From contig JAGGTI010000057.1 of NCBI GenBank assembly GCA_021163775.1, positions 1 through 35,841 on the forward strand: DNA of 35,841 nucleotides. The letters run 5' to 3'. Made by a program: the position numbers and the translations under genes. The notes below the pieces were generated by a model, which saw nothing but the letters and a program-made list of their open reading frames with translations, was not told the origin of the DNA and did no database searches. Below, in pieces: positions 1 through 25,628 of the stretch (within the stretch, counting starts at the first letter, position 1; every line of letters begins with the position of its first letter). The DNA comes from Candidatus Zixiibacteriota bacterium (GTDB lineage Bacteria > Zixibacteria > MSB-5A5 > GN15 > FEB-12).

Positions 1-358
1 CCTGTGCTGGATTTGTGCTGTAATTGTGGCTGTTATCCCTATTTAACTTGAGGCATAAATGGAAGTGAGCTATCAGGTTGCCGGGATGTTGCTGTACCAG
101 CTGAACTCCATGACGGGTAGCCTATTACGCACCTGAGAGTCCACCGTCGCTGTTATTATTCAATCACAGACTCAACTTACTCCAATTGTACATTGTCAGA
201 CAATCCGGATATCTGGGTTTGAAATTTAAGCCACAGTAGGGCGGAACCCCTTGGTGGTTCCGCCAATAATGGCAAAACCGCTAAGGGGTTTTGCCCTACG
301 CTAGCTTCATGGTCGGTTTGTTCTTTCCAATCGCCTCTCATGTAGCTATCCTTGTCCC
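1..358. other. Left-edge non-coding stretch
   Basis: I see no convincing gene here. Open frames are short and none has a recognisable product. The only clear structure is the paired hairpin element near its right end, described separately. The promoter for the downstream transporter gene presumably lies here, but I could not pick a credible -35/-10 pair. Confidence 0.5.
236..299. repeat. Paired-hairpin intergenic element, class A
   Basis: An outer 7-bp inverted repeat (GTAGGGC at 236-242, GCCCTAC at 293-299) encloses two perfect hairpins. Hairpin 1 is GGCGGAACC, loop CCTTGGT, GGTTCCGCC (240-264). Hairpin 2 is GGCAAAACC, loop GCTAAGG, GGTTTTGCC (271-295). The second loop read on the other strand is CCTTAGC, so hairpin 2 looks like an inverted relative of hairpin 1. 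There is no T-tract, so it is not a standard intrinsic terminator. Confidence 0.85.
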
Positions 359-5375: not shown

Positions 5376-5403
5376 GTAGGTCAAAACCCCTTAGCGGTTC
5401 CGA
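5376..5403. repeat. Degenerate class A hairpin
   Basis: GTAGGTC at 5376-5382 matches the outer arm of the element at 10806. It is followed by AAAACC, loop CCTTAGC, GGTTCCGA (to 5403). The inner four base pairs hold, but two stem positions no longer pair, so this looks like a decayed copy. Confidence 0.5.
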
Positions 5404-5445
5404 CATCCGGCAGACGTGGAGAGGTTGTCCCATAAGTTACATGTT

Positions 5446-5788: not shown

Positions 5789-5859
5789 CTGGGGGACAGG
5801 GATTCGAACCCCGATACTACGGTCCAGAGCCGCATGTCCTGCCATTGGACGATCCCCCA
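5789..5859 (-). tRNA. tRNA-Gln (anticodon CUG)
   Basis: Read on the minus strand this folds as a 71-nt tRNA. The acceptor is TGGGGGA pairing with TCCCCCA, with discriminator G. The anticodon arm is TGCGG, loop CTCTGGA, CCGTA, giving anticodon CTG for codon CAG. The T arm is CGGGG, loop TTCGAAT, CCCTG with one wobble pair. A U1-A72 start is typical of glutamine tRNAs. CCA is not encoded. It lies downstream of the thiamine pyrophosphokinase gene on the same strand. Confidence 0.95.
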
Positions 5860-10674: not shown

Positions 10675-10724
10675 ACGGCAAGGATACGCATTTTGGCGGA
10701 AGAATCAACCCTATAGATCGTAGA

Positions 10725-10783
10725 TCGGAACCCCTTGTGGTTCCGACAAGTTCCTGTAGCGCAGAACCCCTTGTGGTTCTGCG
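10725..10783. repeat. Two direct class A hairpins with identical loops
   Basis: TCGGAACC, loop CCTTGT, GGTTCCGA (10725-10746) is followed by CGCAGAACC, loop CCTTGT, GGTTCTGCG (10760-10783). The loops are the same. The stems differ at several positions, yet each change is matched in its partner arm. Unlike the other pairs, these two have the same orientation. Confidence 0.85.
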
Positions 10784-10805
10784 GCCAACGAATGGAAGGA
10801 GCCAA

Positions 10806-10868
10806 GTAGGTCGGGCCCACTTGAGGCCCGACGCTTCCTGTGTCAGGCCCCGAGTTGGCCTGACCTAC
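10806..10868. repeat. Paired-hairpin intergenic element, class A
   Basis: The outer arms GTAGGTC (10806-10812) and GACCTAC (10862-10868) enclose two perfect 8-bp hairpins. These are GTCGGGCC, loop CACTTGA, GGCCCGAC (10810-10832) and GTCAGGCC, loop CCGAGTT, GGCCTGAC (10842-10864). The layout and outer-arm sequence match the element at 236-299. Confidence 0.88.
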
Positions 10869-10978
10869 GATGCTATGGTTTGATTAGTTCTTGTGGGCAG
10901 GATCCCTGTGCTCCTGCCATCTTTAGCTACATTTCGAGTTGCGCTATAAACTCACCATGAATAGTGCGCCACCCGACC

Positions 10979-12178: not shown

Positions 12179-12196
12179 CCCACCTTTCAAGGTGGG
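12179..12196. repeat. Small hairpin CCCACC/GGTGGG
   Basis: CCCACC, loop TTTCAA, GGTGGG, six perfect pairs, in the short spacer between queG and the secreted hypothetical gene. It is similar in style to the other intergenic hairpins but not clearly one of the classes. Confidence 0.55.
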
Positions 12197-14699: not shown

Positions 14700-15168
14700 A
14701 AAGCCAAACCAGGAAATATCGGGAAACCGATCAATAAGTCAGCAAACGTGCCCGGCAGATGTAGATATTTACCGGGCACGAAAATATTGCCTAATGACGG
14801 AATTACCAAGGGGTTACATCCTATAAAGCTGATCTGTCGTAGCCATTTTGCGTGGTGTCGGGTGCCCGATACCCAGTGAACAGGCAAGAACAAAAAAGTC
14901 GTTTCTTCTTGACATAATTGAACTTAGGCTTATTTTGATAAATAGAAGTGCATCGCCGAACCAGACACCATTCCTCACTTGAATTGGGTCGGATTGAGAG
15001 CACACTTTTAGTACCCATCACCGCTTTACTACATTGGTTAGCAGATGATAACCGGCTACTGGCAAGACTCTACGTATTTTGATGTTTCTGCTTGTGACAT
15101 GCTCTTGTTTGCGTGTTAACTGCAGTAAGCGGCCTGCTTTCGTAGCTCCGTCCAAAGAAAGGTTCCTC
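14700..15168. other. Gene-free spacer before the first C10 peptidase
   Basis: No supported gene. It contains a long-loop hairpin (CGTGCCCGG at 14747-14755 with CCGGGCACG at 14772-14780, 16-base loop) just after the aminotransferase stop. A fragment GCGTGGTGTCGGGTGC at 14850-14865 matches the left arm of the class B elements and recurs inverted at 1267-1282. Confidence 0.55.
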
Positions 15169-17982
15169 ATGCCCGACAAATCAGCGATAGTACATACCAA
15201 AGTTTGTCATCCAAGGTCTCAGCCGCTATCAGTTTTCAGCCCGTCTTGGTTGATCTCCGCATTGCTGATTCTGGTTCTCAGTTTCCTGTCGATCCCGGTC
15301 GTTCGGGCTGAGTTAGCGTCCGATCTGGAAATGTCAAATGTCGCCGAAAACTGGGTGACCGAGATGACTGCCAAGCGCAGTCAGTGGGCGGGAGACAGTA
15401 ATCCAACTTTGGGGGCTATCCACGATTTGTATTATGAAGACGTATTAGTGGGGCGGTACTATGATGTTTCACCGCGCGGCTATGTTCTGGTGCCCACGCT
15501 CAAAGAGCTAAGCCCGGTAAAATTATATTCGGATGAATCGGACATGGGGCCATCGCAAGAGGGCGGTATGCTCTTGATGATCAAGGAAAGCCTCTACGAA
15601 CGGATGCAACTCCACGCGCAATTGTATGGTTCATACGCCGCCCCTCAACAAATTGGCGGACCACAGCTTTTTGACGCCTCCAATAAAACCAAGTGGGATC
15701 GCCTGGCAGTGTCAGCCAGGGATTACCGACCCACTACGGCGTTGAGTACCATGTCCGAAGGGGTTCCGTTGCTGACAATTAGCTGGCACCAGAGAGCGCC
15801 GTATTACAATGACTGTCCGATGGGCGATGGTGGTCGAACGGTGGTCGGTTGTGTGGCTACCGCGACGGCTCAGATTATGAAATTTTGGGAATGGCCGGAG
15901 ACCGGTATAGGATTTTTGGGATACGTGTGGGGAGGCGATCATTCTTGCGGTGGCTCAACTCCCTCTCAGTCATTGACCGCAGATCTCAGCGACCCGTATG
16001 ACTGGGCCAATATCCCGGATGACTGTAACGGTGGTTGTTCCAGTGCTCAGAACGACGCTCTGGCCGAACTGAATTATGAAGTTGGTGTTGCTCACCAGAT
16101 GGATTACGGTGCCTGTGGTTCAGGTGCCTGGACCGGTCGCGCCGCATATATTCTGCCTACTTACTTTAAGTACAAGAACACAACTGAAATAGTGAATCGG
16201 AATCAGTATACCCAGCAGGAATGGTTTAACTTGGTGGTACAGGAAGTCGAAGCAGGACGGCCGATTCAGTACCGCATTAATATGCATTCCATTGTCTGTG
16301 ACGGCTGGCGCGATCAGGGTGGCGGACAGCTTGAGTTTCACATGAACTACGGTTGGAACGAAGGCCACACTACCTGGTACCTGTTGGACAATCTGTACTG
16401 TAGTTGGATTGAGGGCGATATCTGTCCCTACGACGAAGAATATATGATAATTGGGATCGAGCCGCAGAGCGAACCGGCCCTTGAATATGTGAATACAGGC
16501 GTCTCTGATCCGACCGGCAACGGGAATGGTCATGGCGAACCGGGTGAAACGCTGGAAGTGTTGACAACAATTAAGAACACGGGTAATAACGCCACCAGCA
16601 TTACCGGAACTCTATCCAGCACTGACCCATATCTCACGGTTGTCTCGGGTGGTTCCACGTATGATCCATCAATTGCCTGGGGTGAACAGGCGACCAACCA
16701 GACAGCTTACACCGTGTCTATCGACCCCGCTTGTCCCGATCCCTACATTGGCAGTTTGAGTATCGCTGTTACGGCCGATGGTGGTGCACCGATAGATGGG
16801 ACTTTTCAGGTTTTTGTTGGTACCAGTAGAGGCCTTGAAGACGATTTTGAGGCGGGCGAAGGTGACTGGACTCATTTAGCCCCGATTTCTTCGTATAATG
16901 ACCAGTGGCACATGGAAAATTACCGCTACCATAGCGGTTCTTATAGTTGGAAGGTGGGGGGGGACGGTCCGGCTGAGTATTTCAATAGTGTTGATGCCGC
17001 CCTGTTGACGCCACCCCTGTTGTTGGCTGTCGATAGCAAGCTCCACTTCTGGCATTGGATGGACGCTGAAACGGACGGTCCGGCTGCCGCTTGGGATGGC
17101 GGAGCGGTCTATATCAGTGAAAACGGTGGCGCATGGACTCAGGTAATACCTGAAGGTGACTATCCGTATGTTGTAACTGGGGGGAGTTCTATCGGAATTG
17201 GACCGGGCAACCCTTGTTACTCTGGAAGTTTTGGCTGGACCGAAGCGGTTTTCGATCTATCCGAGTACTCCGGGGTGGTGCAGATTATGTTCCGTTTTTG
17301 TTCTGATGGTGGCGTAACCGAGGAAGGTTGGTATGTTGATGATGTTTGGATCGGTAACACTCCGGCTGGTTCCGGGGTGACGGTGACCGACACAAACGGT
17401 GCGTCCGTTGCCTACGATATCGTTCTTGTTCGCGGCAATACCTCGTTTACTATTTCCGAAGATTCTCCCGCACCGCTGGCCGGTTTCGCTCCTGTGCCGG
17501 AGGCCACACCAGAGTACTATGAAATTGCAACGGATGCGACTTTTACCGGTAATGCTCATATCTGTCTGCCCTACAATGAAACCGGCGTGGTTGGCGACGA
17601 AAATGAATTATTGATGATGTGCTACGCTGGTGATGAATGGGTTAACGTGACGGAGTCACTCGATATAGAAGCGAACAATATCTGCGGTCAAACCAGTGCG
17701 TTGTCGACTTTTGTCGTGACGGAATTGACCTCATGTTGTTCCAATCGTGTGGGTGATGCCAATATGTTGGGTGGTGATGAACCTACCATTGGCGATATAA
17801 GTGCCTTGGTTGAGATGCTGTTCCTGACCGGAACCGAGGTGGCCTGCCTGCCCGAGGCGGATGTCAACCAATCGGGAGGATTCAACCCGGCCCAGAATGA
17901 TGTTACCATCAGTGATATTTCTATCCTTGTGGACTATCTTTTCATTACGGGATCGAGTTTGGGATTGGCTGATTGCATGTGA
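15169..17982 (+). CDS. Secreted C10 (streptopain-like) cysteine peptidase with dockerin-like tail
   Basis: A 937-residue exported protease. There is a long signal peptide (1-47, ending VVRA), a propeptide (about 48-185) and a peptidase C10 domain with Cys228 in VVGCVATATAQIM and His373 in MHSIVCDGW, the motif pair of SpeB/streptopain. FHMNYGWN, common after the His, is present. Then come a CARDB-like beta domain (about 433-550), a MAM/immune-inhibitor-A-like jelly roll (about 553-730, ending WYVDDVWIGNT) and two dockerin-like repeats (about 855-937: VGDAN, EPTIGDIS, EADVNQSGG, TISDISILVDYLF). It probably cleaves external protein and is held at the surface or in a complex. The start is the ATG with AAAGAAAGG upstream; an earlier in-frame ATG would spoil the signal peptide. 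Confidence 0.87.
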   Translation: MPDKSAIVHTKVCHPRSQPLSVFSPSWLISALLILVLSFLSIPVVRAELASDLEMSNVAENWVTEMTAKRSQWAGDSNPTLGAIHDLYYEDVLVGRYYDVSPRGYVLVPTLKELSPVKLYSDESDMGPSQEGGMLLMIKESLYERMQLHAQLYGSYAAPQQIGGPQLFDASNKTKWDRLAVSARDYRPTTALSTMSEGVPLLTISWHQRAPYYNDCPMGDGGRTVVGCVATATAQIMKFWEWPETGIGFLGYVWGGDHSCGGSTPSQSLTADLSDPYDWANIPDDCNGGCSSAQNDALAELNYEVGVAHQMDYGACGSGAWTGRAAYILPTYFKYKNTTEIVNRNQYTQQEWFNLVVQEVEAGRPIQYRINMHSIVCDGWRDQGGGQLEFHMNYGWNEGHTTWYLLDNLYCSWIEGDICPYDEEYMIIGIEPQSEPALEYVNTGVSDPTGNGNGHGEPGETLEVLTTIKNTGNNATSITGTLSSTDPYLTVVSGGSTYDPSIAWGEQATNQTAYTVSIDPACPDPYIGSLSIAVTADGGAPIDGTFQVFVGTSRGLEDDFEAGEGDWTHLAPISSYNDQWHMENYRYHSGSYSWKVGGDGPAEYFNSVDAALLTPPLLLAVDSKLHFWHWMDAETDGPAAAWDGGAVYISENGGAWTQVIPEGDYPYVVTGGSSIGIGPGNPCYSGSFGWTEAVFDLSEYSGVVQIMFRFCSDGGVTEEGWYVDDVWIGNTPAGSGVTVTDTNGASVAYDIVLVRGNTSFTISEDSPAPLAGFAPVPEATPEYYEIATDATFTGNAHICLPYNETGVVGDENELLMMCYAGDEWVNVTESLDIEANNICGQTSALSTFVVTELTSCCSNRVGDANMLGGDEPTIGDISALVEMLFLTGTEVACLPEADVNQSGGFNPAQNDVTISDISILVDYLFITGSSLGLADCM

Positions 17983-18102
17983 TGGATGATTAACGAAAAA
18001 TATGCGAGACGATTTGTTAGCTTTAATTGAATATTTGACTGACCTGATAGTCGGTGATTACGATTGTAAGGTTGTGATGGTTGGATCGAGGAAGGGTTTG
18101 AA

Positions 18103-20919
18103 ATGTCAACTAAACGTGAGATGAAACATGTGCGTACATTGGTGAATTGCGGGATGATTCGCGGGTGTATTGGAGTGCTTCTGGTTGCCGTTATTCTGGT
18201 CGCCGGTGTGAGCAACTCGGTACTGGCGGAACTTGCAACGAACGTTGAAATGGAAAATGTCGCCCAAAACTGGGTGGTCGAGATGACTGCCAAGCGCAGT
18301 CAGTGGGCAGGAGCAAGCAACCCTGCTATTACCGAAGGCCATGAGCTTCGCCAGGATGGACGCTTATTGGCTCGTTATTACGATGTGTCGCCCCAGGGTT
18401 TTGTGGTCGTCCCAGTTCTCAAAGAGATGAATCCGGTGGTTATGTATTCGGATGAATCGATACTTGACGCATCACAGGAAGGCGGCATGCTCCAGCTTTT
18501 GAGGGATATGATTTCATCAAGGCTTGATATGTATGAGAGCGCTTTCGGCACCCTGAACGCAACCCAACCGACTGGTGGTGAGACTTTATTCGATTCACAT
18601 CAGAAAGCGAACTGGACGCGTCTGGCTGTCGATAGTCGGGCTTTCCGAACCGACCAATCATTGAGTGTGAGTGCCATTGAAGAGGTTGGGCCACTGCTTA
18701 CTTCAAGCTGGCATCAGAGTGCGCCGTATAACAATTCCTGCCCAGCCGGCGATGGGGGAACTTGTGTGGTCGGTTGCACCGCTACCTCGCTTTCACAGAT
18801 ACTCGATTATTGGGAGTGGCCGGAAAACGGTGTCGGTAGCCATTCGTACTACTGGGGTGGCGATGATTGCAACGGGGGATATGTTCCGGGTCAAACTCTG
18901 ACTGCCGATTTCTCCGATAGCTACGACTGGGCCAACATGCCGGACAGTTGTGACGGCGTAACGCCCTGCACTCAGGCTCAGGAAGATGCTTTGGCTGAAT
19001 TGTGTCATGAGGCCGGAGTGGCGGTGAACATGAACTACAGCAACTGTGGCTCGGGCGCCAGCATGAACATGGATGTGTTCCCGACCTATTTTAAGTACAG
19101 CCCCAATATTGCTCGGGAGTACCGGATCAACCACACTGTTCAGAGTTGGTTCGAAGTTATTCAGGACGAGGTGAATGCCGGGCGGGTTATGTGGTACGGA
19201 ATACATTCCCACGCCATTGTCTGCGATGGCTGGCGTGACCAGGGTGGCGGGCAGTTGGAAATGCACCTGAACTATGGCTGGGGCCAGGGAAACAACGCCT
19301 GGTATGTGCTTGATAATTTGTACTGTGGCTGGGTTGAGGGTGACATCTGTCCCTACGAGGTAGAACATGTAACGACGCACATGGAGCCGCAGTATGTTCC
19401 GGCGATGGTCTTTGTAGGTAAGGGTGTGAATGAGACCATCGGCGATGGCGATGGACTGATTGAAGCCGGGGAGACGGTTCAAGTTGATGTAACGGTTAAG
19501 AATCTCGGCAACTATGCGGTCAACGCCACTGGTACGCTGAGTTCATCGGATGCTAACGCCAACATTACGGTTGCTTCGACAACATTTGCGGCCTCTTTTG
19601 GATGGGGCGAAGAAAGCAGTTCTCAGAGTTCGTTTACAGTGGAGATCGACCCGGCCTGTCCCGATCCACATGTTATTGTATTCGATCTACAGATTACAGC
19701 CGATGGCGGTTATCTCACGACTGAGACGTTTCTCTTGTTCGTTGGAGAGACACCCGGTTGGTCGGATGACCTTGAGGGTGATGTCAGTCTCTGGGCACAC
19801 GATGCGATCCGACTGGCTTATGTCGATGAGTGGCATATGGAGACATACCGGGCGCACAGCGGTAGCAGTTCCTGGAAAGCCGGTGGTGCAGGAGACACAA
19901 ACCATTCTGATGCGTCCGATGGCGGCCTTGTAACCCAGCCCTTCCTACTGCCGGTCGATGCCAAATTAACTTTCTGGCACTGGATGGAGGCGGAAGACGA
20001 CGTTGGCATGACCGCCTGGGATGGATCCATTCTGATGATCTCAACCGGTGATGGTAACTGGACCCAGATCGATCCTGTCGGTGGCTATCCCTATACGATA
20101 ATAGACAATGACGCCAGCCCGTTCGCTCCGGGGACACCATGTTACTCGGGAAGCTTTGGCTGGACCGAGGCGACATTTGATCTTTCCGAGTATTCCGGAG
20201 TAGTCCAGATCATGTTCCGATTTGGCTCTGACGGAGCCGTCAATTTCGAGGGCTGGTATGTCGATGACATTTGGATCGGCAATACACTGGTTGGGTCCAA
20301 TGTTGAGGTCAATCCAGCTCCAGACGTGACGCTCACGTTTACTGAGGTGACAGAACCAGGCATTACAACTGTCACTAGTGGCCCCACTGGTCCGGGAGTC
20401 CCCGTAGGTATGATTGCGGTCCCGGCCGACCCGGTTACTTATCACGATATTGTCACTGACGCCGTGTTCTCTGGCGTGATCGATATTTGTTTTGACTACG
20501 ATGAAGGCGATGTTACTGGCGACGAGAACGACATGACCCTGCAACATTACGACGGCAGTCAGTGGACCGATATCGCCTATCTGTTAGACACTGACGCCAA
20601 TTCGATATGCGGCTTGACTACATCGCTGTCGCCATTTCTCCTCGCAGTCGAGAGTGCCGGTTGTTGTCTGGATCGAGTTGGTGACGCCAACGGTATAGGG
20701 GGTGACGAACCGACGATTGGTGATGTCAGCGTGATGATCGATGCCAAGTTCATTACCGGTACCTGTGAAGGTATCCTGGCGTGCATGGCCGAAGCCGATG
20801 TCAACCAGTCCGGCGGTAGTGATCCGATTTGCGGTGATATTACAATTGGAGATATTTCAGTACTGATCGACTATTTGTTCATCACCGGAGTTACGCTCGG
20901 TTTGCCGAGCTGTTTGTAG
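18103..20919 (+). CDS. Second secreted C10 cysteine peptidase with dockerin-like tail
   Basis: A 938-residue paralogue of the preceding gene, with the same order of parts: signal peptide (about 1-42, ending SVLA), propeptide starting ELATNVEMENVAQNWV, and C10 domain with Cys225 in VVGCTATSLSQI and His370 in SHAIVCDGW followed by MHLNYGWG. CARDB-like (about 430-545) and MAM-like jelly-roll (about 550-730) domains follow, then two dockerin-like repeats (about 853-938). The propeptide and jelly roll are nearly word-for-word copies (MTAKRSQWAG; LSEYSGVVQIMFRF), showing tandem duplication and divergence. Its last ~35 codons lie within a 286-bp block almost identical to the end of the next gene. 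A gap of 120 bases separates it from its paralogue. Confidence 0.87.
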   Translation: MSTKREMKHVRTLVNCGMIRGCIGVLLVAVILVAGVSNSVLAELATNVEMENVAQNWVVEMTAKRSQWAGASNPAITEGHELRQDGRLLARYYDVSPQGFVVVPVLKEMNPVVMYSDESILDASQEGGMLQLLRDMISSRLDMYESAFGTLNATQPTGGETLFDSHQKANWTRLAVDSRAFRTDQSLSVSAIEEVGPLLTSSWHQSAPYNNSCPAGDGGTCVVGCTATSLSQILDYWEWPENGVGSHSYYWGGDDCNGGYVPGQTLTADFSDSYDWANMPDSCDGVTPCTQAQEDALAELCHEAGVAVNMNYSNCGSGASMNMDVFPTYFKYSPNIAREYRINHTVQSWFEVIQDEVNAGRVMWYGIHSHAIVCDGWRDQGGGQLEMHLNYGWGQGNNAWYVLDNLYCGWVEGDICPYEVEHVTTHMEPQYVPAMVFVGKGVNETIGDGDGLIEAGETVQVDVTVKNLGNYAVNATGTLSSSDANANITVASTTFAASFGWGEESSSQSSFTVEIDPACPDPHVIVFDLQITADGGYLTTETFLLFVGETPGWSDDLEGDVSLWAHDAIRLAYVDEWHMETYRAHSGSSSWKAGGAGDTNHSDASDGGLVTQPFLLPVDAKLTFWHWMEAEDDVGMTAWDGSILMISTGDGNWTQIDPVGGYPYTIIDNDASPFAPGTPCYSGSFGWTEATFDLSEYSGVVQIMFRFGSDGAVNFEGWYVDDIWIGNTLVGSNVEVNPAPDVTLTFTEVTEPGITTVTSGPTGPGVPVGMIAVPADPVTYHDIVTDAVFSGVIDICFDYDEGDVTGDENDMTLQHYDGSQWTDIAYLLDTDANSICGLTTSLSPFLLAVESAGCCLDRVGDANGIGGDEPTIGDVSVMIDAKFITGTCEGILACMAEADVNQSGGSDPICGDITIGDISVLIDYLFITGVTLGLPSCL

Positions 20920-20923
20920 ATTT

Positions 20924-20978
20924 GTTGGATCCACTTGAGGCCCGACGTTTTTGGTGTCACGCCCCGAGTAGGCGTGAC
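20924..20978. repeat. Class A paired hairpins downstream of the second C10 gene
   Basis: Hairpin 1 is GTTGGATC, loop CACTTGA, GGCCCGAC (one mismatch, two wobbles). Hairpin 2 is GTCACGCC, loop CCGAGTA, GGCGTGAC (perfect). The loops match those at 10818 and 10850, while the second stem has a compensated change (AC/GT instead of AG/CT). It begins five bases after the stop codon. The same sequence recurs at 23441-23495. Confidence 0.85.
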
Positions 20979-21002
20979 CTGCTGACTCATTTGTTTTACG
21001 TG

Positions 21003-21078
21003 GTGTCGGGTGACCCTGCCCGACACCCGGTGAACAGACACGAACAGACAAAAACTGTTAGGCAGAGTCGCCTGACAG
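21003..21078. repeat. Class B paired hairpins
   Basis: Hairpin 1 is GTGTCGGG, loop TGACCCTG, CCCGACAC (21003-21026). Hairpin 2 is CTGTTAGGC, loop AGAGTC, GCCTGACAG (21055-21078) with one G-U pair. The loops are identical to those at 13286 and 13324, but the stems are different. Flanking GTGGTGTCGGG and CCTGACAGCAC pair over most of their length. Confidence 0.88.
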
Positions 21079-21138
21079 CACAAATGTGGTTCCGACGTTG
21101 CTCTGGTTCTGCCTGAGTGTTTGTAGTTGAGGATAGTC

Positions 21139-23436
21139 ATGTCGGTATTGATTAAACTGTTTGCTATCGGTTGCTTCCTTATTGGTGGAACGGCGCAGAG
21201 TGCCGACGTACCCCTGGGTACGATGCCGTTCTGGTCGACATCGGAGCAGAATATCTACTCCACCGGTATGATCTGGCGTGACTGCAATCGTGATGGCGTC
21301 ATTGATGTTTTCTACTCGAATGGCAACGATATCGTGCAGGCCGCGAACAATATCTACCTGTTTGGGGGTGACCAATTCCCGGTTTCGGCCGCCTGGTACT
21401 CTTCGAATCAGGAATACTCCGGTCACTGTGCCGTGGGCGATATCAATGACGATGGTTATCCCGACCTGATGGTATCAGACTACCTCGGTTCCGGTTTTAG
21501 TGATCCCAATCAATCAGAATTCTATCTCAACGATGGTGGTTTGCCCAACGCCATCCCGGTTTGGAGCACGCCCGATCTCATTTTTTCATTTTCGTGTGCC
21601 TTCGGTGATGTCGACGGCGACGGCGATCTTGATGTTGCTTTTGCCACTGGTGAAGGTTACCAAAATGACTACCAGCAGGATATTATCTATCTCAATGTCG
21701 ATGGTAATTTCTCCAACAGTATCTACTGGAATTCGGATGCTGTCGGCGCGTCAATGGATGTCGCTTGGGGTGATGTTGACAACGACGGCGATCTGGATCT
21801 GGCCTTCACTTATGACGCCACTGCCACCTCGGTCTACTACAATGACAACGGGGTCATGGAAACCACACCGTCCTGGCAGGCCGGTACGACCGAGTCGGGG
21901 AATACTTTGGTGTTTGGTGATGTTAACGGCGATGGCTGGCTTGATCTGATGGTAGCCTACAACAATCAGCTCGGTGGCGGTGGTCGGTTTCGGGTTTATT
22001 TCAACGACGGAGCCGGCAATCTCGACCCTAACTATGGCTGGCAATCGAGTACCGGCGGTTACGGTTCGGCGTTGGCGCTGGGCGATTACGACAACGATGG
22101 CGACTACGACCTGGCCACCGGACGCTGGTGGAGCACATTATGGGTGTACGAAAACCTCGGTACCACTTTCACGACAGCCCCTGTCTGGACTTCCGGGCTG
22201 GAGTGTGTGGCCGAAGAATTGGCCTGGGTTGATATTGACGGTGCGAGTGTAGTATCGCTGATCGATACGCTACCTATGGATGGTAGCAGGAAGCTGTTTT
22301 ACACCGAGTATCAGCCACTGTATGAAGTCGATTCGGTCTATGCCGATGGTAGCAAACTCGGCTACGCTGACTACTGTTACGATCTGGTCTCCGGCTGGGT
22401 GTCACTGGCTGAAGCGCCGACTACCGAGGCGGTCTGTTTTTATCGCTACTCGTTCCACAACGACCTGGCCGTTAGCAACTGGGATACTGTGAATTTTGTC
22501 TTTGCCAACACCAACCCGCCGTTAGTGGATATAACTGTCGCCAATGCCTTTGGCCCGGTACCGCTGACGGTTCAGTTTGATGATAACTCAGTTGGCGCCT
22601 ATGAATGGTCGTGGGATTTCGGCGATGGCGAGACATCGGCCGATCAGAACCCGTTGTACGAATATACCCAACCGGGTCGCTATGACGTTACGCTGGAGAT
22701 CACAACTCCCGAAAGAAATTACACACGGGTTTTTGATGACCTGGTCTCGGTCTATGCCGACACTCTCTGGATGGAGAAAGTGGCATTTGTAGATAACAAG
22801 GCACGAGTTGACGTGTACGCTTATAACTATATGCCTCTGTCGGAGATTATCATTCCGTTTTCGTGGGACGGCCCTCTGGATGTGCGGTTTGATTCGATTT
22901 CAGTCAACGGGTTACGGACCGAATACTTTGATACGCATGGAGTCATTGATTTGGTGACAGTTCTGGACGCCGCTACCGTGCGATTGGCGGTCGGTACGCA
23001 GGCACCGCTTGAGCCTGGCACCGGATCGATAGTTTCATTGTACTTCACCTACTTGGGGAGTGAAACCTCCGGTTCATCCCCGATCAGATTCTGGAATTAT
23101 GACACGCGCGAACTGAGTCTGTTATGTCCGGCTGGTTACTATGTGTCGGAAACTATCGATGGAGCGGTGGTTCTTGACTGCTGTTTGAGTCGAGTTGGTG
23201 ACGTTAACGGTGAGGGTGGCGACGAACCAACAATCGGTGATGTTAGTTGCCTTATCGATGCTGTATTCATCACCGGCAATTGTGAGGGTGTCATTGACTG
23301 TTTGGCCGAGGCTGACATAAACCAATCCGGTGGTAGTGATCCGATCTGCGATGATATTACAATTGGAGATATTTCAGTACTGATCGACTATTTGTTCATC
23401 ACAGGAGTTACGCTCGGTTTGCCGAGCTGTTTGTAG
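21139..23436 (+). CDS. Secreted VCBS/FG-GAP and PKD protein with cohesin-like and dockerin-like modules
   Basis: A 765-residue exported protein, probably non-enzymatic. Parts in order: signal peptide (1-22), then VCBS/FG-GAP-type repeats (about 90-330) with calcium-binding Asp motifs DVDGDGDLDV, DVDNDGDLDL, DVNGDGWLDL and DYDNDGDYDL, likely a beta-propeller. Next come a PKD domain (about 463-540, WDFGDGETS), a cohesin-like beta domain (about 541-675, IIPFSWDGPLDVRFDS and GTGSIVSLYFTY) and two dockerin-like repeats (about 680-765). It may be an adhesin or scaffold. The start is the ATG with GAGGAT seven bases upstream; an in-frame TTG four codons earlier is less likely. The gene is bracketed by 286-bp direct repeats, the first ending 39 bases before its ATG. 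Confidence 0.85.
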   Translation: MSVLIKLFAIGCFLIGGTAQSADVPLGTMPFWSTSEQNIYSTGMIWRDCNRDGVIDVFYSNGNDIVQAANNIYLFGGDQFPVSAAWYSSNQEYSGHCAVGDINDDGYPDLMVSDYLGSGFSDPNQSEFYLNDGGLPNAIPVWSTPDLIFSFSCAFGDVDGDGDLDVAFATGEGYQNDYQQDIIYLNVDGNFSNSIYWNSDAVGASMDVAWGDVDNDGDLDLAFTYDATATSVYYNDNGVMETTPSWQAGTTESGNTLVFGDVNGDGWLDLMVAYNNQLGGGGRFRVYFNDGAGNLDPNYGWQSSTGGYGSALALGDYDNDGDYDLATGRWWSTLWVYENLGTTFTTAPVWTSGLECVAEELAWVDIDGASVVSLIDTLPMDGSRKLFYTEYQPLYEVDSVYADGSKLGYADYCYDLVSGWVSLAEAPTTEAVCFYRYSFHNDLAVSNWDTVNFVFANTNPPLVDITVANAFGPVPLTVQFDDNSVGAYEWSWDFGDGETSADQNPLYEYTQPGRYDVTLEITTPERNYTRVFDDLVSVYADTLWMEKVAFVDNKARVDVYAYNYMPLSEIIIPFSWDGPLDVRFDSISVNGLRTEYFDTHGVIDLVTVLDAATVRLAVGTQAPLEPGTGSIVSLYFTYLGSETSGSSPIRFWNYDTRELSLLCPAGYYVSETIDGAVVLDCCLSRVGDVNGEGGDEPTIGDVSCLIDAVFITGNCEGVIDCLAEADINQSGGSDPICDDITIGDISVLIDYLFITGVTLGLPSCL

Positions 23437-23617
23437 ATTTGTTGGATCCACTTGAGGCCCGACGTTTTTGGTGTCACGCCCCGAGTAGGCGTGACCTGCT
23501 GACTCATTTGTTTTACGTGGTGTCGGGTGACCCTGCCCGACACCCGGTGAACAGACACGAACAGACAAAAACTGTTAGGCAGAGTCGCCTGACAGCACAA
23601 ATGTGGTTCCGACGTTG
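23332..23617. repeat. 286-bp direct repeat, copy 2
   Basis: Second copy of the block at 20815-21100, 283 of 286 bases the same. The last 214 bases (after 23403) are fully identical, including non-coding hairpins at 23441-23495 (class A) and 23520-23595 (class B). Such identity in non-coding DNA, beside dockerin codons that diverge sharply just upstream, points to recent duplication or gene conversion. Confidence 0.95.
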
Positions 23618-23662
23618 TTATTGATAATGTTAGCCGTTTATTATAGGTCCGGTTTAGTGGGC

Positions 23663-23701
23663 GGCAGACGTCTCGTCTGCCTCAAAGTGATTGCTTGCAA
23701 T
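23663..23701. repeat. Two small hairpins (class C and TT-loop)
   Basis: GGCAGACG, loop TCT, CGTCTGCC (23663-23681) shares its stem with the hairpin at 5725-5744. ATTGC, loop TT, GCAAT (23690-23701) shares its core with 13211-13224. Confidence 0.6.
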
Positions 23702-23736
23702 TTGACAGATATTCATTTTGGATGTTCTTTTATAAG

Positions 23737-23772
23737 TTGACACAGAATGAAAACAACTTATATTTATATAAT
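23737..23772 (+). promoter_or_regulatory. Possible promoter of the papain-like peptidase gene
   Basis: A perfect TTGACA (23737-23742) is followed, after 18 bases, by TATTTA (23761-23766) and directly by TATAAT (23767-23772) in a strongly AT-rich stretch. It lies 30-70 bases before the GTG start. Spacing to TATTTA is acceptable; spacing to TATAAT (24) is too long. Confidence 0.4.
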
Positions 23773-23804
23773 AGCTAAGTTGTATTAACACAAGAGGTTA
23801 CCCT

Positions 23805-25628
23805 GTGAATTATCGTTCCGTTATTGCCCTGCTGTTTGTCTTAATTATAGTTGTTTCATCGCCGGTTTTGGCCCAATTGGATCGGGAGGCGATAGATGTG
23901 ATGGAGCAACAGGGAGTCGATGAAGGCTGGACATTTACCGTGTCCGAAAACCCTGCAACGCAATATCCTCTCGATCAATTGTGTGGTCTGAAAGAACCTG
24001 ATGACTGGCAGTCCAAGGCGCGCTTTGATCCGATGACAGCCACTTCCAAGTTAACAATACCGTCAGCGTTTGACTGGCGTGACCACAATGGCTGTACTCC
24101 GATTCGGAGCCAGGGCGGATGTGGTAGTTGCTGGGCCTTTGCCACCGTTGGAGCTTTGGAGTGTGCCATCATGATACGCGAGGGAGTCTCGGTCAATCTC
24201 TCTGAACAATGGTTGGTCAGTTGTAACCAGAGTGGCTGGGGTTGCGATGGCGGTTGGTATGCTCATTCATATCATGGCTGGTGGACTGATCATTGCGGTG
24301 GCACCGGGGCTGTGCTCGAATCAGATTTCCCATATAACGCCACCGATGGCCCCTGTAATTGTCCCTATCCGCACCACTACACAATTGACAACTGGGCCTA
24401 TATTGGCAACAGCGGTTCAGTGCCAGGTATCGAGGAGATGAAACGTGCCATCCTCGAGTACGGTCCAATCTCGGTTTCGCTGTATGCCGGTGGTCCTTTC
24501 CAGGGGTATGACGACGGTATTTACAACTACTGCGTCCCGGGTGAGATCAACCATTCGGTAGTGTTGGTTGGTTGGGATGACAGCCAGGGGCAGAGCGGGG
24601 TTTGGATTCTGCGCAACTCATGGGGATCCTGGTGGGGCGAGGGTGGCTATATGCGGATCCAATACGGTTGTGCTCAGGTTGGCTATGCCGCCTGTTTTGT
24701 TGACTATCGACCGATTATTGTGTCGTGCGATACCGAATTTGGGGCGGCTCCGTTGGCAGTTAATTTCCAGTATGAAGCATCGGGGACAACAGTTACCGGG
24801 CATAACTGGAATTTCGGCGATGGCGATTATTCTACCGATCCGAACCCGTTACATACCTATAATGATCCAGGGTGCTACACCGTCACGTTGACTTTGAGTA
24901 CACCCGATGGTGATTTGACGAAAACCTGTCACAGTTTGATTTCTGCCTACGCTGATACACTGCGGGGAGATATTATCGAGATTGATTCCGGTGGGGTGCT
25001 GGGTATGGATATCATAGCTCGCAACAATCTGGAACTTGATAAAATTACTATTCCGTTTACCTGGGATGGCCCGTTTGGGTTGACTTACGACTCATTTACG
25101 GTGGCCGGAACCCGAACCGAATATTTTGGTTCGGCAGTCGCAATCAGCTATGACCCCAACAACGATCGCGCTACAATCTCTCTGCAACCGGGTTTGGAAC
25201 CGCCATTGCCGCCTGGTGAAGGTCCCGTGGCCACTCTCTGGTTTAGCGCTCCATTCAACGTTTCCGGTGCCAACTCAATAGCTTTGGTAGCCTATGGCAG
25301 TTACTCACCTCACTTTATGGCTGGTGAAAACATTTATGAGCCGGTACTGATCGATGGCCTATTCCATACCGGGACCTCGATGGGTTGCTGTCAGGGACAT
25401 GTGGGCGATGTCAATATGAGTGGCGACGATGTACCGACAATTGGCGACATCTCGGTTCTGATCGATCATCTCTTCATTTCGGGGCTGGACCTGGAGTGTA
25501 TTGAGGAGGCCGATGTCAACCAATCGGGCGGAGCCTACCCAACCGATGATGATCTGACTATTGGAGACGTATCGGTCTTGATTGATCATCTCTTTATCAG
25601 CGGTCAGCCTCTGGGCGAATGCTTGTAG
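23805..25628 (+). CDS. Secreted papain-family (C1A) cysteine peptidase with PKD, cohesin-like and dockerin-like modules
   Basis: A 607-residue exported protease. Signal peptide 1-23 ends PVLAQ. A short pro-region without a recognisable I29 domain precedes a C1A domain (about 83-300). All catalytic residues are present: Gln in RSQGGCGSCWAF, Cys109 in GSCWAF, His250 in INHSVVLVGW and Asn271 in LRNSWGSWWGEGGY. A PKD domain (about 302-385, WNFGDGDYS), a cohesin-like domain (about 385-520, ITIPFTWDGPFGLTYDS) and two dockerin-like repeats (about 525-607) follow. The tail halves match the architecture of the VCBS protein upstream. The GTG start is chosen because it opens the signal peptide and has AAGAGGT upstream. 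Confidence 0.88.
   Translation: MNYRSVIALLFVLIIVVSSPVLAQLDREAIDVMEQQGVDEGWTFTVSENPATQYPLDQLCGLKEPDDWQSKARFDPMTATSKLTIPSAFDWRDHNGCTPIRSQGGCGSCWAFATVGALECAIMIREGVSVNLSEQWLVSCNQSGWGCDGGWYAHSYHGWWTDHCGGTGAVLESDFPYNATDGPCNCPYPHHYTIDNWAYIGNSGSVPGIEEMKRAILEYGPISVSLYAGGPFQGYDDGIYNYCVPGEINHSVVLVGWDDSQGQSGVWILRNSWGSWWGEGGYMRIQYGCAQVGYAACFVDYRPIIVSCDTEFGAAPLAVNFQYEASGTTVTGHNWNFGDGDYSTDPNPLHTYNDPGCYTVTLTLSTPDGDLTKTCHSLISAYADTLRGDIIEIDSGGVLGMDIIARNNLELDKITIPFTWDGPFGLTYDSFTVAGTRTEYFGSAVAISYDPNNDRATISLQPGLEPPLPPGEGPVATLWFSAPFNVSGANSIALVAYGSYSPHFMAGENIYEPVLIDGLFHTGTSMGCCQGHVGDVNMSGDDVPTIGDISVLIDHLFISGLDLECIEEADVNQSGGAYPTDDDLTIGDVSVLIDHLFISGQPLGECL

Follow-up and report, generated by a model that had tools for sequence, protein, structure and literature searches.

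Two GTAG-tagged REP families as the probable source of covarying intergenic hairpins in a Candidatus Zixiibacteriota genome

The stretch of DNA considered here, referred to as the window, comprises 35,841 nucleotides of a Candidatus Zixiibacteriota bacterium and carries intergenic hairpins whose loops remain constant while their stems differ from copy to copy. This pattern raises the question of what kind of element is being conserved. A first-pass annotation of the window favored a folded RNA or a cruciform, and took the absence of a RAYT gene from the window as a hint against REPs. The analysis described here leads to a different answer: the hairpins are, with high probability, two GTAG-tagged REP families in a BIME/REPIN layout, i.e., non-autonomous mobile DNA hairpins recognized as single-stranded DNA by RAYTs. 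REPs of this kind are already known in many bacteria; the two families themselves, designated A and B, are probably new.

The hairpins of the window follow a common plan, in which the tetranucleotide GTAG lies directly 5' of an 8-9 bp stem that is closed by a 6-7 nt loop. The family A consensus is GTAG GTCRNGCC NACTYGR GGCNYGAC, and that of family B is GTAG GKCRRAACC CCTTRGY GGTTYYGMC, with window stems such as GGCGGAACC or GTCGGAACC and a CCTTRGY or CCTTGT loop. The 5' tag adjoins the stem in window units of both families, and reads GCAG in two duplicated copies. All of the sites at which repeated hairpins had been annotated carry this motif, and the original coordinates mostly omitted the GTAG head. 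An outer 7-bp stem that had been proposed to enclose some hairpins proved to be a misreading, in which the invariant GTAG head was taken as part of a stem, although this head corresponds to the 5' tag already described for GTAG REPs (Di Nocera et al., 2013; PMC3733652).

Family B forms a head-to-head dimer at 236..299, consisting of a plus-strand half, GTAG GGCGGAACC CCTTGGT GGTTCCGCC, and a minus-strand half, GTAG GGCAAAACC CCTTAGC GGTTTTGCC; the covariance model matches it at 236-264 (+) and 271-299 (-), and its single-stranded DNA fold has a z of -7.8. A lone, decayed family B copy with two mismatches in its stem is located at 5376..5404 on the plus strand (covariance model E 9e-8), and its fold does not surpass that of shuffled sequences (z = -0.2). 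Two plus-strand copies with 6-nt loops follow at 10720..10747 (GTAG ATCGGAACC CCTTGT GGTTCCGAC; covariance model E 1e-5; DNA fold z = -4.8) and 10756..10783 (GTAG CGCAGAACC CCTTGT GGTTCTGCG; DNA fold z = -6.7). Adjacent to these, the family A dimer at 10806-10868 joins a TTGA-loop half, GTAG GTCGGGCC CACTTGA GGCCCGAC (10806..10832, plus strand; covariance model E 4.6e-7), to a TCGG-loop half, GTAG GTCAGGCC AACTCGG GGCCTGAC (10842..10868, minus strand; covariance model E 2.3e-7). The former 27-mer is present in six identical copies in the genome, the window copy included, and the latter belongs to one of 13 head-to-head family A heterodimers. Clean inverted pairs, as described in the first-pass annotation, are confined to 236-299 and 10806-10868; the two family B copies of 10720-10783 have the same orientation.

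Family A dimers with decayed left halves are found at 20920..20982, where the right half (20956-20982, minus strand) is intact with a GCAG head (covariance model E 9.5e-6), and at 23437..23499, a duplicate that arose by segmental duplication. The two share 214 nt of ungapped identity within a likeness spanning ~300 nt. Because one duplication accounts for both, these dimers count once and not as the separate copies that had been listed near 20.9 and 23.4 kb. The duplication itself (20662-21100 / 23179-23617) affects the C-terminal coding part of two neighboring genes, which is ~84% identical rising to 100%, and takes in ~180 nt of intergenic DNA including the REP dimer. A 42-nt motif akin to it is also found near 17838 and 25490, which together with the duplication points to a C-terminal module common to four neighboring genes. 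A cluster encoding large, probably secreted proteins extends from 15079 to 25628 and includes two C10 peptidases with InhA-like MAM domains, an FG-GAP/PKD protein, and a papain-family peptidase with PKD. Additional short palindromes or repeats that belong to neither family (10896-10918, 12179-12196, 14846-14867, 20994-21015, and 23511-23532), e.g., GGCAGGA...TCCTGCC and GTGTCGGGTG..., possibly represent other REP or terminal-repeat families. Elsewhere in the window, a tRNA gene (5789-5859, minus strand) lies within an open 245-aa ORF of the opposite strand.

The compensating nature of the stem changes was evident from the alignment of genome copies. The covariation score of family A (31 distinct rows) was 0.338, as compared with 0.168 ± 0.018 for shuffled alignments, and that of family B (22 rows) was 0.377, as compared with 0.200 ± 0.020; in neither family did any of 500 shuffles reach the observed score, and the signal was lost when the pairing partner was slid. 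Changes on both sides were found in five of the eight family A stem pairs among the 31 distinct rows, and 95.2% of stem cells were paired in the distinct sequences of this family, against 85.5% after shuffling. A ten-genome alignment from the phylum provides a further view of stem position 5, which the search pattern left unconstrained in both arms and at which G-C, A-U, C-G, and U-A all occur and pairing is retained in 17 of 17 distinct sequences around a constant NACTYGR loop; the rows of this alignment were pattern-selected, which partly imposes pairing elsewhere in the stem, and position 5 alone serves as evidence. Stems of a mobile family share descent, and covariation counts are not equivalent to independent events.

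The annotated sites are a small sample of families that are spread over the genome. In the host assembly (2,373,877 bases in 130 contigs, 77% complete, with the window on contig 20), patterns with fixed head and loop found 67 matches to GTAG-N9-ACTYGR, as compared with 18 for the reversed control pattern, and 40 matches to GTAG-N9-CCTTRGY, as compared with four; GTAG was built into these patterns, but its excess relative to the reversed control is clear. Arms with two or fewer mismatches per 8 bp were present in 46 of the 58 distinct family A matches read through, and arms with two or fewer mismatches in 27 of the 32 such family B matches, the rest being mostly near random, and arm complementarity is bimodal in both families. 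Covariance models derived from these match sets identified at least 63 family A and at least 117 family B units in the draft genome at an E of 0.05. Units of the two families lie outside ORFs of ≥150 aa in 74 of 79 cases, against 26% of random positions at the same loci. The units thus display the features that characterize GTAG REPs, namely the GTAG tag, a stem-loop palindrome, many mostly intergenic copies, and dimers of opposite orientation. The rpe-queG gap, which contains the 10.7-10.9 kb array, is 1542 bp long in this genome. In the congener G001 it measures 726 bp, none of which matches, and in G013 it is 55 bp. This comparison is supportive of unit insertion; its use as empty-site proof was rejected, as the gaps also differ in sequence other than the repeats.

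Dimer formation in family A follows a strict rule. Of the 53 units whose head and loop are clean, 26 are joined in 13 head-to-head pairs with their GTAG ends outermost, while the remaining units are single or have a decayed partner. Twelve of the 13 dimers are 61-65 bp long and one is 78 bp. All 13 are heterotypic, combining a TTGA-loop unit with a TCGG-, TTGG-, or TCGA-loop unit, whereas free pairing at near-equal numbers of the loop types would give about half homotypic dimers. Descent from one master dimer would explain this rule. Heterodimers are preferred in many GTAG families and have been suggested to escape the removal of long palindromes (Di Nocera et al., 2013; PMC3733652). The distribution of family A is patchy: covariance models count at least 63 units in the host, four among the matches listed for G001, none among those listed for G013, at least 15 in G039, and at least 27 in G120, and, of 132 genomes from the phylum, 10 have exact-pattern matches.

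The first-pass annotation had recommended looking for a co-occurring transposase, and RAYT genes were indeed found in the host genome outside the window. Their number, at least six, deprives the absence of a RAYT from the window of its weight against REPs. Six Y1 transposase domains of five distinct types are present, all outside the window; the five distinct full-length proteins all exceed the cut-off of the RAYT NCBIfam model NF047646, with more than 80 bits, and host RAYTs exhibit HxH and YxHxNP-type motifs. In the flanks read, each full-length type is bracketed by a hairpin of its own sort: GTAGCCCACAG-CTTG-CTGTGGG for the RAYT on contig 86, the GGCAGACG type on contig 22, GGCAGATGTGGACATCTGCC on contig 61, the CCCATCCGCTTGCGG type on contig 29, and the CAGGTC...GACCTG type on contig 17. 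Family A and family B bracket none of the intact RAYTs that the host genome yielded. Two equal-scoring RAYT genes on contig 86 (G000:C86:4184-6474; L036) are 1838 bp apart, each near GTAGCCCACAGCTTGCTGTGGG hairpins, and reflect either tandem duplication or an assembly effect. A seventh, 5'-truncated RAYT remains on contig 52 (L147; G000:C52:10262-10549), in which repeat-rich DNA stands in place of the N-terminal half. An inverted family B unit is located ~20 nt past the stop codon of this remnant, and a decayed family A dimer ~400 bp upstream of it.

Family B does bracket a transposase gene in a relative. In G068, which belongs to a different genus within the same family, units of B lie on both sides of an intact RAYT (L154), the upstream one with stem GGCAGAACC and the downstream one with stem GGCGGAACC, with loops CTTTAGC and CTTTAGT. 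The congener G001 contains at least about 110 family B model matches as well as a RAYT bracketed by a hairpin related to family B, GTCGAAACC-CCTGC-GGTTTCGAC. A tree of 40 RAYTs from the host and its relatives resolved a 17-member clade (support 100/99), to which both the contig 52 remnant and the B-bracketed L154 belong. A mechanical scan of loci L055-L085 and L141-L170 found a GTAG hairpin adjoining 14 of the 17 clade members, as compared with one of the 23 RAYTs outside the clade. Several of the latter bear palindromes without GTAG. The profile of this clade has a match at 8e-35 to 4er8, a structure of the REP transposase of E. coli, and most RAYTs of the clade end in Gly-Glu. In another genome, two RAYT copies (G027:C91:4743-6905; L155 and L162) lie 1662 bp apart with GTAGGTCAGGAGC hairpins flanking them; their identical in-frame stops imply that an already broken RAYT was duplicated.

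These findings suggest a mechanism based on that of characterized RAYTs. The unit, in which a 5' GTAG tag precedes an 8-9 bp stem closed by a family-specific loop of 6-7 nt, and which often forms half of a head-to-head, two-subtype dimer of ~61-65 bp, would fold into a DNA hairpin when its strand is exposed, e.g., during replication. A RAYT, which is an HUH tyrosine transposase, would then bind the GTAG and stem-loop and cut beside the unit, which would be copied or moved to new intergenic sites. We propose that the stem arms are free to change jointly because pairing is the requirement there, and that presumed contacts with the RAYT protein hold the GTAG and loop constant. A constant tag and loop accompanied by a jointly changing stem would be the expected trace of such recognition. 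The substrate that characterized RAYTs process is the GTAG strand of the REP, folded as a single-stranded hairpin, and not its complement, and certain loop bases are essential for single-stranded REP processing in two of three tested transposases, while the loop matters little in E. coli (Corneloup et al., 2021; PMC8266576). By analogy, the earlier proposal that the loop is part of the recognized feature is likely sound.

Comparison with known systems places families A and B among the GTAG REPs of Di Nocera et al. (2013; PMC3733652), which likewise have a 5' GTAG, are intergenic, occur as several families per genome, form head-to-head heterodimers, and share their genomes with RAYT genes. Alternative complementary residues in stems and head-to-head heterodimers are features of published REPs, and the stems described here resemble those 6-9 bp stems in having such alternative residues. 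Their loops differ, being 6-7 nt in length as compared with the 2-4 nt common there. The comparison with the 24 published families was made by description and not by stem or loop sequence, and the text of that study does not mention uncultured or metagenome-derived lineages. As in REPINs (Bertels and Rainey, 2011; PMC3116915) and the BIMEs of E. coli, the repeating unit consists of two inverted REPs and is non-autonomous, with a RAYT in the genome; the points of difference are that family A strictly combines two subtypes of loop and that the stems lack the bulge of E. coli REPs. RAYTs beside GTAG hairpins resemble the group 2 RAYTs, which include E. coli TnpAREP (4er8), in matching it along most of their own length and in mostly ending in Gly-Glu, a likely counterpart of the E. 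coli residues G160 and E161 on which Corneloup et al. (2021; PMC8266576) report. Unlike the bulged stems of group 2 in that study, the REPs paired with these RAYTs have unbroken stems, as in group 3.

The enzyme that serves family A is a separate matter. No RAYT with family A on both sides was found among those with flanks read, which included several of the closed genome G039. Assignment of family A to two G039 RAYTs (2.288 Mb), which have A units 150-190 bp outside, was rejected because their own, different hairpin pairs lie closer. Family A could be orphaned, or another enzyme could move it. One variant of the REP explanation, which we consider conceivable but somewhat doubtful, holds that its own RAYT is extinct, that the copies are decaying, and that the pattern records past transposition. 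The lack of an A-bracketed RAYT in any inspected flank, those of the closed genome included, and the decayed heads or arms of several copies are in keeping with such a relic, whereas the six identical 27-mers in this genome, set against the four copies listed in the congener G001, suggest fairly recent spread in the host lineage, and a family A RAYT may lie in the ~23% of the genome that is missing. A more speculative and rather improbable proposal is that family A, as a REP lineage lacking a transposase of its own, is mobilized in trans by the RAYTs of other REP families. These RAYTs would read the GTAG and loop and check only the pairing of the stem, and the 7-nt loop of family A would have been retained throughout an entire bacterial class as its stem changed.

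It is very unlikely that the hairpins act mainly as RNA, i.e., as transcribed stem-loops at gene ends that stabilize mRNA or bind a protein through the loop, with RNA selection driving covariation. Constant loops and covarying stems are compatible with this idea, and in the duplicated region a stop codon, at 20919 and again at 23436, is followed within a few bases by a REP dimer. The GTAG strand also has G-T pairs in excess of A-C mismatches, 30 to 15, but the two arise at nearly equal numbers of stem positions and the ratio may represent few inherited changes; this wobble was rejected as a sign of selection on one strand, given the few independent events. Nor does positive support come from other quarters: the hairpins have no Rfam match, a gathering-score scan of the window yielding the tRNA only, and a terminator scan found no terminator-like site at the array. 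The gene-end enrichment that the first-pass annotation had suggested looking for was not seen in a crude ORF-based test, in which convergent genes flanked 12 of 42 unit-holding gaps, as compared with 20 of 96. Furthermore, an RNA role leaves the GTAG tag, the heterodimers, and the RAYT bracketing unexplained, and these features favor REP DNA over the folded RNA or cruciform first envisaged. Chance palindromes or assembly artefacts, for which the 130-contig draft and the single duplication behind two listed copies might speak, can be set aside in view of the excess over control patterns (67 against 18 and 40 against 4), the bimodal arm complementarity, and the presence of copies in other genomes.

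On the reading of the hairpins as GTAG REPs, mobile DNA accounts for their covariation and no new RNA need be invoked, a distinction of importance to genome scans in which covariation is taken as a mark of structured RNA. The analysis adds two REP families, together with RAYT-repeat pairs, from a lineage known here from genome assemblies alone. Among these pairs, RAYTs with a Gly-Glu terminus accompany GTAG hairpins, an association that could be tested with the E. coli co-structure as a reference, and family A is a candidate for a REP family that has outlived, or never had, a transposase of its own.
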